This document shows positions 13,428 to 41,970 of a stretch of 43,553 bases of DNA, one piece after another. Each line of letters starts with the position of its first letter. The first letter of the stretch is position 1. The notes under the pieces were generated by a model. That model was not told where the DNA came from, did not search any database, and saw only the letters and a list, made by a program, of their open reading frames with translations. The position numbers and the translations under genes are program-made. The DNA comes from Candidatus Woesearchaeota archaeon. Its GTDB lineage: Archaea > Nanobdellota > Nanobdellia > Woesearchaeales > GW2011-AR9. Location of the stretch: the NCBI GenBank assembly GCA_016181265.1, contig JACOZP010000002.1:1-43553 (forward strand), given 5' to 3'.

Positions 13428-14414
13428 ATGGCCCTCTTCAACTACATTATCGTCATCTTATTATTAACCCTCTCTGCTTTATTTTCCGGACTGACGCTTG
13501 GTTTGATGAGCTTAGGGCCGTATTCCCTACAGCGAAAGATAAAACTCGGCAACCCCGATGCTAAAAAGATCTACCCTCTGCGAAAAAAAGGGAATCAGCT
13601 TTTAAGTACTCTCTTGATTGGAAATATCGCTGTAAACTCAGCCATTGCTGTTTTCCTTGGTTCGCTGACCGCGGGAGTTGTTGCCGGATTTGTTTCCACC
13701 GCGCTGATTGTTATCTTTGGAGAGATTGTTCCTCAAGCCGTCTTTTCCCGCCATGCCCTCCGTTTCGGCGCACGGTTTACTTGGCTTGTCTATATTTTCT
13801 TTTATCTTTTTTTCCCGTTCACCTGGCCGATCGCCTACGCCTTGGACAAGCTGCTTGGCAAAGAATTACCTTCTGTTTTTACCAAGAGAGAATTCTTCCT
13901 CTTTTTGGAACAGCAGAAAGAATTGAAAGATGCGAAAAGTTCAGATATCAAAGAACATGAATTTTCCATTCTCCAAAAAGGTCTTACCTTCTCGGATAAA
14001 ACTGTCCGCGACGCAATGACTCCTTGGAAACAGACTTATTATCTTACTCGTTCAACACGGCTATCCAAAGTATCTCGTCTCGATCTTCATCGGCAAGGCT
14101 GTTCACGGATCCCGGTATATGACACAAAAGAAAAAAAAGTTATCGGAATCTTGTATGTTAAGGATCTGGTGAGTATGCCTCATCTTAACGACGTGCCCGT
14201 AGAAAAGATGATGCGTTCGATGGTTCATTATATTTTTGAGACCGATAAATTAGACAAAGTGCTTAATCTTTTTAAGAAAAATCGTGTTCATCTGTTCATC
14301 GTTGTTAATGCCGTCCATAAAGTTGTTGGGATTATTACGTTAGAAGATGTTCTAGAAGAGATCGTTGGTGAGATTTTTGATGAACATGAAGACGAAGCCG
14401 ATTTACTAAACTAG
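13428..14414 (+). CDS. CNNM/CorC-type membrane protein (DUF21 + CBS pair)
   Basis: N-terminal TM domain LTLSALFSGLTLGLMSL, then paired CBS domains RIPVYDTKEKKVIGILYVKDLV / VVGIITLEDVLEEIVGEIFDEHE. Confidence 0.92.
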   Translation: MALFNYIIVILLLTLSALFSGLTLGLMSLGPYSLQRKIKLGNPDAKKIYPLRKKGNQLLSTLLIGNIAVNSAIAVFLGSLTAGVVAGFVSTALIVIFGEIVPQAVFSRHALRFGARFTWLVYIFFYLFFPFTWPIAYALDKLLGKELPSVFTKREFFLFLEQQKELKDAKSSDIKEHEFSILQKGLTFSDKTVRDAMTPWKQTYYLTRSTRLSKVSRLDLHRQGCSRIPVYDTKEKKVIGILYVKDLVSMPHLNDVPVEKMMRSMVHYIFETDKLDKVLNLFKKNRVHLFIVVNAVHKVVGIITLEDVLEEIVGEIFDEHEDEADLLN

Positions 14415-14562
14415 TAAATGACAGAACTAAGTTATAATCGCCCTGTCATTTACTATACATGAAATGAGAAAGCGTTCTCATTTCAGTACCGAAAACAAAT
14501 TGTAGTTTTTTTTCCGGTATAGTGAGCGACCATTTTCAATAGTTTTCTTTTGTCGCTCACTA
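14412..14562. repeat. Complex inverted-repeat element A (tandem hairpins)
   Basis: 14412-14424/14443-14455 (13 bp perfect), 14460-14470/14475-14485 (11 bp), weaker 14487-14491/14515-14519, 14520-14530/14552-14562 (11 bp). Confidence 0.85.
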
Positions 14563-20504: not shown

Positions 20505-20657
20505 CATCCTAAAAATGCGTGAAACCGTCTTACCCCGTCTCAAGAAATCAAACAAAGATTTGATTTCTGAGCAAGAATGAAGTCGTTGCTTCATTCTTTG
20601 CTTAAAAGACGGGGGGTTTGAAAAAAGACGGTTTCTAAACCCTGCATTTTTAGGATG
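20505..20657. repeat. Complex inverted-repeat element B (three stacked stems plus two terminal hairpins)
   Basis: 20505-20518/20644-20657 (14 bp perfect), 20521-20531/20625-20635 (11 bp), 20533-20540/20607-20614 (8 bp), 20543-20552/20559-20568 (10 bp), 20571-20582/20589-20601 (12 bp, one bulge). Confidence 0.9.
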
Positions 20658-33470: not shown

Positions 33471-33565
33471 CGTCGTCACTCATTTCCTAATCAAATCCAC
33501 CCTACCCACCCCTCCGAGATCTTTCACCCTCTATCATCTGATGTCGCTGGTATATGTAAAGATTA

Positions 33566-33786
33566 TTAAAACGCGGAGTATTCCACTCCTCTTTTAAATG
33601 GTGGTTTGTGAGCAAACCACTGATTTATTTGTGGAATACTTGCGTGTAAGAAATGAGAAAAACGTTCTCATTTCTACACAGAAAAGAAATCGTCGTTTCT
33701 TTTCTTGTGTTCAAAATTAGGCCGGGGCATGAAATGAAAGAAGGATTTCATCTCTGCACCCCGGCCTATTTTGACAAACGTTTTAA
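33566..33786. repeat. Complex inverted-repeat element D (closing stem around four hairpins)
   Basis: 33566-33573/33779-33786 (8 bp); 33577-33586/33631-33640 (10) with inner 33601-33608/33613-33620 (8); 33649-33659/33665-33675 (11); 33680-33689/33696-33705 (10); 33718-33727/33759-33768 (10) with inner 33729-33735/33745-33751 (7). Confidence 0.9.
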
Positions 33787-33812
33787 ATGATTGGCTCTCT
33801 CCTCACTTCTTC

Positions 33813-35672
33813 ATGACTATTCCTCCCTATTTCCCCCATCTTTCTGTTCGCGTCGGACAGGAAGATTTTATTAACGATCTTCAGCTTGCATTTGAGCAGA
33901 AAACAATCCTTCTCGCTCACGCTCCTACGGGCTTAGGGAAGACGGCTAGTGCATTAGCCATTGCTGTCCAGCACGCATTAGAACACAAGAAAAAAGTGTT
34001 ATTCTTGACGAATCGTCATACCCAGCATCGGATTGCTATCGACACGATTGCCCTGATGCGGAAGAAGACTGACCGCGAAATCATCTCTGTCGATCTCATC
34101 GGCAAACGGTGGATGTGCAGCCAAGATGTTGCCGGTCTTTTTGGTAACGAATTTAATGAATTCTGTCATGCTGTCGTAGAAAAGGGCGAATGTGAATTCT
34201 ACAATACTGTTCGTGATAAAAAAGCATTGACTGTAGAAGGAAAAGCTGTCCTTGCCCAATTAAAACGGCAACCACCGTTGCATACGGAAGAACTATGCAC
34301 CACTGCTCGAGAAAAGACAATGTGTGGTTATGAGTTAGCGATGGCTTTAGCGAAAGACGCTCATATCATTGTCGGAGATTATTATTATCTGTTCAATCCT
34401 CATGTCCAAAGTTCTTTCTTCTCAAAAATAGAAGCGGAGTTAGAAGATATTATCGTCATTGTAGATGAAGGCCATAATCTTCCTTCTCGGATAATGGATA
34501 TGCTTAGCAATAATCTTTCCACTACGATGCTCCGCAATGCTATCATTGAAGCCAAGAAATTTAATTACGGTGGGGTTATCCATTGGTTGCAAGAGATCAC
34601 GCGAATCCTGACTGAGTTTGCTGATTTCACCCCTAGCAATTCGTTTGATAAAGAGAAAAAGATTACTAAAGATCAATTCATCGCTGCTATTAGAAAAACT
34701 ACTGATTATGATCACTTAATTGAAGAATTAGAATTAGCTGCTGACGAGATTCGTAAAAAACAACGCAAAAGTTTTCTTGGTGGCATTGCCTCTTTCCTTC
34801 AAGCCTGGAAAGGTGATGACGAAGGATTTGCTCGCATCCTTTCTGAGCGTTCCGGCAAAATGGGGCCATCTATTTCTCTTCAATATCTTTGTCTTGATCC
34901 TGCTTTGATCACGCGCGATATTTTTGCTGCTGTTCATGCTGGCGTGATTATGAGCGGAACATTAAGACCTATTTCTATGTACAAAGACGTCTTAGGCATT
35001 CCGAAAGGGATAGAGAGAGAATATGTTTCTCCCTTTCCCCCTGAAAATAAAGTGACCATCATCGTTCCTGAAACATCCACTAAATTCACCGCGAGGAGCG
35101 ATACCATGTTTCAAGTCATTGCCCGTAAATGCGGCGAACTTTCTCACCTGATTCCAGGAAATGTTGCCTTCTTCTTTCCTTCCTATGATCTTCGTGATCG
35201 CATTTGTTCCTTTCTCTCAGTCGAAAAGAAAACGTTCTGGGAAAAGAGTGAGATGACGAAAGAAGAGAAAGAACAGCTTCTTGCTTCATTTCACGCCGAG
35301 CGTAAATCTGGCGGTGTTCTTCTCGGTGTCACGGGTGCCAATTTCGCGGAAGGCGTCGATTTTCCCGGTGATCTGCTGAATGGGGTTGTCATCGTCGGCC
35401 TGCCCTTGGCAAAACCAGACTTGACTACCAAAGAATTAATTGCTTACTACGAACGAAAATTTGGTCGAGGCTGGGATTACGGATACATCTATCCTGCGAT
35501 GAATAAGTGTTTCCAATCAGCCGGCCGTTGTATCCGCTCCGAGACCGATCGTGGTGCAATCATTTACCTTGACGAACGTTTTTCCTGGCAGAACTATTTC
35601 TGCTGCTTTCCTCGAGAAGGTACGATCGTCAGCTCTCAATATGCCCGCATACTAACGGCATTTTTTGGTTAA
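33813..35672 (+). CDS. XPD/Rad3/DinG-family superfamily 2 helicase
   Basis: Walker A APTGLGKTASALA, DEGH box IVDEGHNLPSR, cysteines between, motif VI QSAGRCIRSETDRG; ATG 33813 preferred over TTG 33771. Confidence 0.92.
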   Translation: MTIPPYFPHLSVRVGQEDFINDLQLAFEQKTILLAHAPTGLGKTASALAIAVQHALEHKKKVLFLTNRHTQHRIAIDTIALMRKKTDREIISVDLIGKRWMCSQDVAGLFGNEFNEFCHAVVEKGECEFYNTVRDKKALTVEGKAVLAQLKRQPPLHTEELCTTAREKTMCGYELAMALAKDAHIIVGDYYYLFNPHVQSSFFSKIEAELEDIIVIVDEGHNLPSRIMDMLSNNLSTTMLRNAIIEAKKFNYGGVIHWLQEITRILTEFADFTPSNSFDKEKKITKDQFIAAIRKTTDYDHLIEELELAADEIRKKQRKSFLGGIASFLQAWKGDDEGFARILSERSGKMGPSISLQYLCLDPALITRDIFAAVHAGVIMSGTLRPISMYKDVLGIPKGIEREYVSPFPPENKVTIIVPETSTKFTARSDTMFQVIARKCGELSHLIPGNVAFFFPSYDLRDRICSFLSVEKKTFWEKSEMTKEEKEQLLASFHAERKSGGVLLGVTGANFAEGVDFPGDLLNGVVIVGLPLAKPDLTTKELIAYYERKFGRGWDYGYIYPAMNKCFQSAGRCIRSETDRGAIIYLDERFSWQNYFCCFPREGTIVSSQYARILTAFFG

Positions 35673-40813: not shown

Positions 40814-41881
40814 ATGTCCTTATTCAAAGATATGCTCAAGAGTGGCGAATCTATTTTTCGTGACACCCTCTTCCTCAACTACGATTTCCAGCCGAAGACC
40901 CTTTTCGCTCGCGAGAATGAACAACAACGCTTTGCTGTTACCATCCGTCCTCTCTTAGAAGGACACACTGGTCGGAATCTGTTCGTCTACGGCGCACCCG
41001 GGATCGGTAAGACCACTGCCTGTAAACATGTCCTGCGTGAGCTGCAAGAAACCTCTGACGAAGTCGTCCCATTATACATCAACTGCTGGAAAGAGAATAC
41101 CACCTACAAAATATTCTACCGCATTTGTGAAGATCTCGGCTACAAATTCATCCAGAGCAAAAAGACCAATGAACTTCTTGCTCTTATCACTGCCAAACTC
41201 AACAAAGGTAGCGCTGTCTTCGTCTTTGACGAGATTGATAAATTAGAAGATACTGACTTTCTTTATAGCATCTTGGAAGATATCTATCGCAAATCGATCA
41301 TCATGATTACTAATTATCGCGATAGTTACAGCGAACTCGATGAACGCATCCGCAGCCGTCTTGGTCCGGAGTTTCTCTTCTTCCGTCCTTATAACGAAGC
41401 GGAGCTCACTCAAATCCTGACGCAGCGTTGCGAATATGCGTTTGTCCCTGGCTGCTGGGATCCGGAAGCATTCAAAGAGGTCGTCGAGAAGTGTGCTGAA
41501 GTCAAAGATGTCCGTGTCGGCCTTTTCTTGATGCGCGAAGCAGGTAATCTTGCCGAAGAGAAAAGCTCACGTAAGATCGTGGACGAGCACGTTGCCCGAG
41601 CCATCATGAAAGTAGATGATTTTTATATCAAACCAAAAGAAGGATTAGACGAAGATCTGCAGGTCATCCTTGATGTCATCCGTGACCACGGCGGGAAAAA
41701 GATCGGAGATATTTTTGGTGCGTACTCTGAGATGGGCGGGGAGTTAAGTTACAAGAGTTTCCAGCGACGGATCTTAAAGTTAGAAGAAGGCAAGTTTATT
41801 TCCACCGAAAAACAGTCCGGAAAAGAAGGTAATACCACTATTATTCATCACATCCCTAATCGAAAATTGACGGAGTTTTAG
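40814..41881 (+). CDS. cdc6: Orc1/Cdc6 replication initiator
   Basis: FARENEQQRFAVTIRPLLEG, Walker A YGAPGIGKTT, Walker B FVFDEIDKLED, C-terminal winged helix. Confidence 0.94.
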   Translation: MSLFKDMLKSGESIFRDTLFLNYDFQPKTLFARENEQQRFAVTIRPLLEGHTGRNLFVYGAPGIGKTTACKHVLRELQETSDEVVPLYINCWKENTTYKIFYRICEDLGYKFIQSKKTNELLALITAKLNKGSAVFVFDEIDKLEDTDFLYSILEDIYRKSIIMITNYRDSYSELDERIRSRLGPEFLFFRPYNEAELTQILTQRCEYAFVPGCWDPEAFKEVVEKCAEVKDVRVGLFLMREAGNLAEEKSSRKIVDEHVARAIMKVDDFYIKPKEGLDEDLQVILDVIRDHGGKKIGDIFGAYSEMGGELSYKSFQRRILKLEEGKFISTEKQSGKEGNTTIIHHIPNRKLTEF

Positions 41882-41970
41882 TAAACGACAAAATAAAGAT
41901 ATCACTAATCTTATCGTTTACTATATAGTGAGCGACACGTTTCTCTGCATTATTTATTATCGCTCACTAT
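41879..41970. repeat. Complex inverted-repeat element E (two tandem hairpins)
   Basis: 41879-41888/41914-41923 (10 bp), 41925-41935/41960-41970 (11 bp). Confidence 0.85.

Follow-up and report, generated by a model that had tools for sequence, protein, structure and literature searches.

Nesting of small mobile repeats in larger palindromic elements is known from Haloquadratum, where repeats with an unknown mobiliser insert into the palindromes of IS605-derived elements (PMC3119063). Among known systems, the Haloquadratum pair PATE and SMR-A (PMC3119063) is closest to the pair described here, an outer element (AD) and an inner double-hairpin element (DHE). The IS605-derived PATE of Haloquadratum walsbyi is, like AD, archaeal, short and non-coding, with palindromes near both ends; it inserts after a short target without duplicating it and is itself targeted by small elements (PMC3119063). 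AD differs in its target, TTNAAA, and in a palindrome that begins at the very left end. As in PATE/IS200-IS605 MITEs, we found in AD precise and duplication-free insertion (two empty sites), a conserved short 5' target that is also present in the empty sites, and palindromes near both ends (hairpins A and D) with no coding capacity; we do not assign AD to that class, because the search revealed no IS605-type transposon sharing its ends and several AD carriers yielded no Y1 gene.

SMR-A, like DHE, is short, with many copies, inverted ends and an unknown mobiliser; it strongly prefers PATE/IS605 palindromes as insertion sites (PMC3119063), and some DHEs too lie in hairpin elements. It measures about 110 bp and makes no target duplication, whereas DHE has 60 bp, a 2-bp duplication and a complementary joint. 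DHE carries terminal inverted repeats (CAAGAAA ... TTTCTTG), as does SMR-A, and is not assigned to SMR-A because length and duplication differ. Two adjacent hairpins, dispersed and presumed mobile, also characterise the double-hairpin elements of Allomyces mitochondria and the hairpin repeats of sponge mitochondria (PMC2800124). Unlike DHE these are mitochondrial, those of Allomyces reportedly have no flanking duplications, and the text consulted mentions no complementarity between joint and target.

REP/REPIN sequences are likewise small dispersed palindromes, often paired, whose transposition is presumed to proceed via RAYTs of the Y1 type (PMC3116915, PMC3733652). DHE departs from them in its 2-bp duplication, in the near absence of G.T pairs and in that a Y1 gene was not found in several carriers; the DHE consensus shows neither a GTAG nor a CGTC tag at the foot of its hairpins, and G.T pairs are often observed in GTAG REPs, in contrast to DHE (PMC3733652). 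IS608 and ISDra2 of the IS200/IS605 group recognise single-stranded DNA hairpins, as we propose for AD and DHE, and have a conserved 5' target, as does AD (PMC5934647). Their 4-base guide, which pairs with the target, lies 5' of each hairpin (PMC5934647), whereas the candidate guide of DHE comprises two bases between the hairpins; the DHE target is also duplicated over 2 bp, which is not characteristic of IS200/IS605. The open-access literature searched, which leaves most subscription papers outside it, gave no description of small mobile hairpin elements in DPANN archaea.

A composite hairpin region upstream of a helicase gene

The window, i.e., the whole stretch of 43,553 nucleotides that was analysed, is the entire contig G000:C2 of a 1.0-Mb draft genome. 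At 33566–33786 the first-pass annotation had described four hairpins, two of them with internal hairpins, enclosed by an 8-bp closing stem (TTAAAACG/CGTTTTAA). All are present at these coordinates, and the internal hairpins are confirmed within hairpins 1 and 4. Folded as RNA, the plus strand of 33560–33792 reaches −94.1 kcal/mol, whereas shuffled sequences average −47.3 (z −11.0), the minus strand gives the same z of −11.0, and DNA parameters give a z of −12.0. The comparison with shuffled controls that the annotation had suggested therefore finds excess stability on both strands, with no shuffle equal to the native sequence.

Comparison with related sequences indicates that the four-hairpin region most probably consists of two hairpin elements, both dispersed and non-autonomous, with DHE nested in AD (Table 1). 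The pairing of the closing stem exists, but the stem is composite and mostly host DNA: TTAAAA is the left flank, the next two bases, CG, are the first two of AD, and the right arm is wholly host DNA, most of it furnished by the TATA box of the helicase gene. Because TTAAAA is the target and CGTTTTAA includes that TATA box, the closing stem is a product of where AD happens to lie.

Table 1. Positions of the hairpin elements and of adjacent features in the window
Feature	Position	Strand	Remarks
TTAAAA target motif (TTNAAA type)	33566–33571	+	Directly 5' of AD; left arm of closing stem
AD element carrying DHE	33572–33776	+	Starts CGCGGAGTATTCC, ends TATTTTGACA; conserved ends; copies in other genomes
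Hairpin A of AD (hairpin 1) with inner hairpin	33572–33644	+	Folds; homologous copies
TG, left copy of 2-bp duplication	33645–33646	+	Flanks DHE
DHE (hairpins 2 and 3), between hairpins A and D	33647–33707	+	Covariance model R1, 80.2 bits
CA joint dinucleotide between DHE hairpins	33677–33678	+	Reverse complement of flanking TG
TG, right copy of 2-bp duplication	33708–33709	+	Flanks DHE
Hairpin D of AD (hairpin 4)	33712–33776	+	Comparison with L090/L039, L103/L040
TATA box TTTTAAA of helicase	33781–33787	+	TTTWAA-type motif ~25–33 bp before ATG in many orthologues
XPD-like helicase	33813–35672	+	DEAD_2 / HBB / Helicase_C_2; orthologues align from about MTIPPYF
Second DHE of the window, TA..TA..TA	14456–14519	+	Covariance model
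Third DHE of the window, CT/AG type	20539–20602	−	In loop of host hairpin CCCCGTC..GACGGGG

The mechanically called TTG start of the helicase frame, at 33771, falls within AD, and the gene most likely starts at the ATG at 33813, the start that orthology favours. AD adjoins the helicase TATA box on its upstream side and may affect the promoter, an effect that would be incidental to the nature of the element.

The outer element AD

Aligned copies define a basic AD unit of ~152 bp, which reads CGCGGAGTATTCC...hairpin A...hairpin D...TATTTTGACA. Copies and partial copies are found in G000, in G002, in G031 and in other genera (most of the genomes compared are drafts, of which selected stretches were used); hairpin A has copies of 92–93% identity in G000 at C21:25100 and C15:3780, and a DNA search of that genome with the region returns 15 further partial matches, with many more in relatives. 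Different copies retain different hairpins, so that AD is modular. The inner hairpin of D (33728–33756) resembles what is left of another DHE, which is complete in relatives. TTNAAA precedes most of 20 distinct AD left ends, and the sequence after the right end varies.

Two empty sites define the insertion. Among named relatives the nearest, G002 (locus L087), is a congeneric Candidatus Woesearchaeota genome; its helicase is 74% identical, and the spacer that separates its HTH and helicase genes lacks AD. At the orthologous position L087 reads TTGAAA^AATGTTTTAAA, with the motif uninterrupted and no target duplication. At the second site, the L093 copy of AD in G002 lies at CTTAAAA^TCGGC within another repeat; the alignment includes four copies of that repeat that are uninterrupted. 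The alignments show that AD entered the helicase promoter precisely on the 3' side of a TTRAAA motif and duplicated no target bases; the orthologous loci L256 and L257 are too diverged to be counted as empty sites.

The orthologous spacer of the relative contains two other hairpin insertions (L087 3402–3470 and 3575–3745), one of them from an abundant G002 repeat. This repeat, GGCACAATCC...GGATTGTGCC, has many copies and is itself an AD target. In L003, L091 and L092 a diverged double hairpin (CACAGTGAAA..TTTCACTG, TAATGAAG..CTTCATTA) occupies the apical loop of AD hairpin A, a third insertion position within AD.

The inner element DHE and its joint

DHE has a fixed architecture, NN-CAAGAAA-stem-loop-stem-TTTCTG-nn-CAGAAA-stem-loop-stem-TTTCTTG-NN, in which the duplicated NN enclose 60 bp. 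Conservation is fair in the loops, many copies having AAACTA and TCGTTG, and the stems are variable. A covariance model built from 26 copies detects DHE in 42 of 51 genomes of the host's family and, weakly, in 5 of 48 from the order's remaining families; across a sample of the whole phylum, it detects DHE in 17/25 family genomes versus 2/216 others. The exact half-pattern has no match among viral contigs. Related DHEs sit at other positions and in other repeats, and several copies lie in AD and other hairpin elements. Palindrome loops, considered as the DHE target, show only modest enrichment over 92 sites (14% vs 5.5% with stems of at least 7, p 0.02).

In the window, the paired inverted repeats TAGTAAATGACA / TAGTGAGCGACA at 14412–14562 and 41879–41970 form another dispersed element, with a DHE at its centre in the former and none in the latter. 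A longer dispersed repeat of G000, AACCGACC...GGTCGGTT (C18:11656, C6:22853, C18:20632, C16:4869, C7:10753 and C4:47195; L023–L028), has several inner hairpins, one of which is a DHE, and was probably active recently, because its copies are nearly identical. A MITE-like repeat of ~300 bp (C1:3915, C1:42997, C14:199728, C15:42727, C17:15514 and C19:20053 of G000; L029–L036) has long inverted ends, GTACGTATTTAGTTGGCC...GGCCAACTAACTAAATACGTAC, and a DHE that is flanked by duplicated AA and whose joint, TG or TA, does not match. In L137 (G035:C197, 1480–1840) a DHE interrupts a tRNA-Ser-like copy around its D-loop, and this copy is adjoined by an intact tRNA-Ser(GCT) gene at 1621–1706; the array contains a second DHE. 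The DHE of L045 (G022:C43:2227–2290) may interrupt a gene, as an apparent open coding frame (..VNGNNINNQGRSRG..) results once the insert is skipped.

The flanks were analysed at 85 independent DHE sites with unrelated flanking sequence, which are best-scoring hits with duplicates removed by flank similarity only. A 2-bp flanking duplication is present in 74 of them (shuffle mean 15, max 26), and in 78 (shuffle mean 16, max 30) the left NN has its reverse complement in the joint nn. The duplicated dinucleotide is pyrimidine-purine in 58/74 cases and the flanks follow a weak symmetric consensus, TnnGR-YR-YCnnA, a pattern that looks like cleavage with a 2-bp stagger. An initial 4-bp flank match was reduced to the 2-bp duplication after aligning copies. 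Empty sites confirm that the duplication is genuine. Within one genome, L210 reads TATCTGG-CA-[DHE]-CA-TCCAAC and L264 reads TATCTGT-CA-TCCAAC. The AD copies L002 and L093–L096 join A directly to D, and TG is duplicated in the DHE-bearing AD; family III has an empty site with TA duplication, and the tRNA-Ser-like copy reads GG-TA-[DHE]-TA versus GG-TA-TA beside the intact tRNA-Ser gene.

Nearest-neighbour elements share their joint in 25 of 69 cases (13 expected). As this inheritance is weak and the fit to the flank is close (78/85), the joint follows the insertion site more than ancestry. Where the two flanking dinucleotides are unlike, the joint matches one side in 10 of 11 sites. The exceptions to the match combine AA with TG or TT with TA, and family II reads AA/TG/AA.

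The stems point to single-stranded DNA, not RNA, because their changes are compensated and very few G.T pairs occur. In the 26-copy alignment, for which copies with Watson–Crick stems were chosen, 98.6% is paired; the changes are two-sided in 113 pair cells and one-sided in a single cell. A fairer test comes from the larger set obtained with the model: 149 related double hairpins contain 3492 Watson–Crick pairs, 18 G.T pairs and 58 other mismatches, counts that lean somewhat towards paired matches because well-paired copies served to train the model. Of the non-Watson–Crick pairs, 24% are G.T versus 15% expected from base composition, so that it is scarcely better tolerated than any mismatch.

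These observations bear on what the region is. That its hairpins arose in place, by chance or by local replication slippage, can practically be dismissed: A+T-rich spacers do readily yield short palindromes, and five shuffled windows gave 2–7 strong hairpins, compared with 17 observed, yet the fold z of about −11, the fixed DHE length of 60 bp, the loops conserved across genera and, above all, precise homologous copies with empty sites refute this origin. It is very improbable that the region encodes a structured non-coding RNA, as the first-pass annotation had in part proposed, or serves the helicase gene as a leader. The fold on the helicase strand is indeed very strong, but the opposite strand folds equally, the stems are almost without G.U (G.T in DNA), Rfam returns nothing credible at gathering or relaxed thresholds, the orthologous spacer lacks the element, and the TATA box lies downstream of it, so that the helicase transcript would begin past the element. 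The alternative reading of that annotation, a multi-cruciform, was right in kind, in that the region is multi-hairpin DNA with cruciform potential; a link to the helicase is not supported, since the orthologous spacer of the nearest relative is without the element and other copies lie at unrelated loci. The homologous structured spacers whose absence the annotation had named as a refutation do exist, but as copies scattered over unrelated loci. We also consider it unlikely that the repeat is useful to its host, as a terminator, a nucleoid or replication signal or a promoter module, and spreads secondarily rather than being purely selfish. All three DHEs of the window are intergenic and the 33647–33707 copy abuts the TATA box; against such a role, DHE varies from 0 to >50 hits among related genera, one copy interrupts a tRNA-like repeat, and positional conservation is not seen among the loci compared. 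AD and DHE, as two nested dispersed elements, are probably without host function.

Proposed mobilisation of AD and DHE

The compared copies show dispersal of both elements, in many copies, through one archaeal family, modular nesting, precise insertions (without duplication for AD and with it for DHE) and complementarity of joint and target. From this comparative evidence we infer that both elements are mobile, and the exceptions to the match keep strict guiding a candidate. No transposase could be tied to AD or DHE among the genomes examined. G000 has one copy of Y1 transposase, and the gene was not found in the carriers G002, G003, G017, G018, G031 and G064 (90–98% complete), nor in the AD carriers G002, G008, G016 and G031. 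Y1 was rejected as the mobiliser on account of this absence from several carriers and of the TnpA loci L113 and L114, whose ends, when read, differ from those of AD. A Y1 gene does lie at 923–1357 of L137, about 150 bp upstream of the DHE/tRNA array. Derivation of DHE as a MITE of IS630/Tc1-mariner was also discarded, because TA accounts for only 15 of the 74 duplications and DDE_3 does not correlate with DHE carriage (absent from the carriers G000, G002, G003, G031, G064 and G074), as was an IS110 or bridge-RNA system, as the DEDD_Tnp_IS110 recombinase is not correlated with carriers (absent from G000, G002, G003, G031 and G064).

In the mechanism we propose, AD and DHE would be recognised as single-stranded hairpins by a protein acting in trans. 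AD would move like IS200/IS605-type elements, peeled out single-stranded and pasted 3' of a short target. DHE would leave its site as a circle or dumbbell of single-stranded DNA, with the two target bases paired mid-stem to the joint dinucleotide; in the computed circular fold of DHE plus NN, the retained NN does pair with the joint. Either this pairing would determine the next insertion site, as the 4-base guide does in IS608, or copying across the hairpin would re-establish it shortly after insertion.

A serious contender, to which we give somewhat less than an even chance, is that the match is made after insertion, when hairpin-templated repair or replication template switching copies the flank into the joint; the same process would keep the stems perfectly complementary, and the joint would play no part in target choice. 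The joint is nearly uncoupled from element ancestry, stem changes are compensated even among close copies, as hairpin-templated correction would give, and sites with unlike flanks still match the joint on one side, all of which favour rewriting. Such correction should, however, often rewrite a flank, yet the flanking pairs are identical in 74 of the 85 sites, and some insertions (family II) keep a mismatched joint. We tentatively put forward, as a possible reading, a DHE that moves as a minimal DNA dumbbell; its joint of two bases would be a programmable guide that pairs with a dinucleotide and so selects each new target, or is rewritten to match it.

In sum, elements of the AD/DHE type can form most of the structure of a spacer, and nested mobile DNA can underlie strong multi-hairpin folds in such genomes that resemble structured RNAs or riboswitches. 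The complementarity of joint and target provides a clean, testable signature for distinguishing DNA guide pairing from hairpin-templated rewriting. If the guide reading is true, DHE would be among the smallest guide-carrying mobile elements, moved by an enzyme of one archaeal family.
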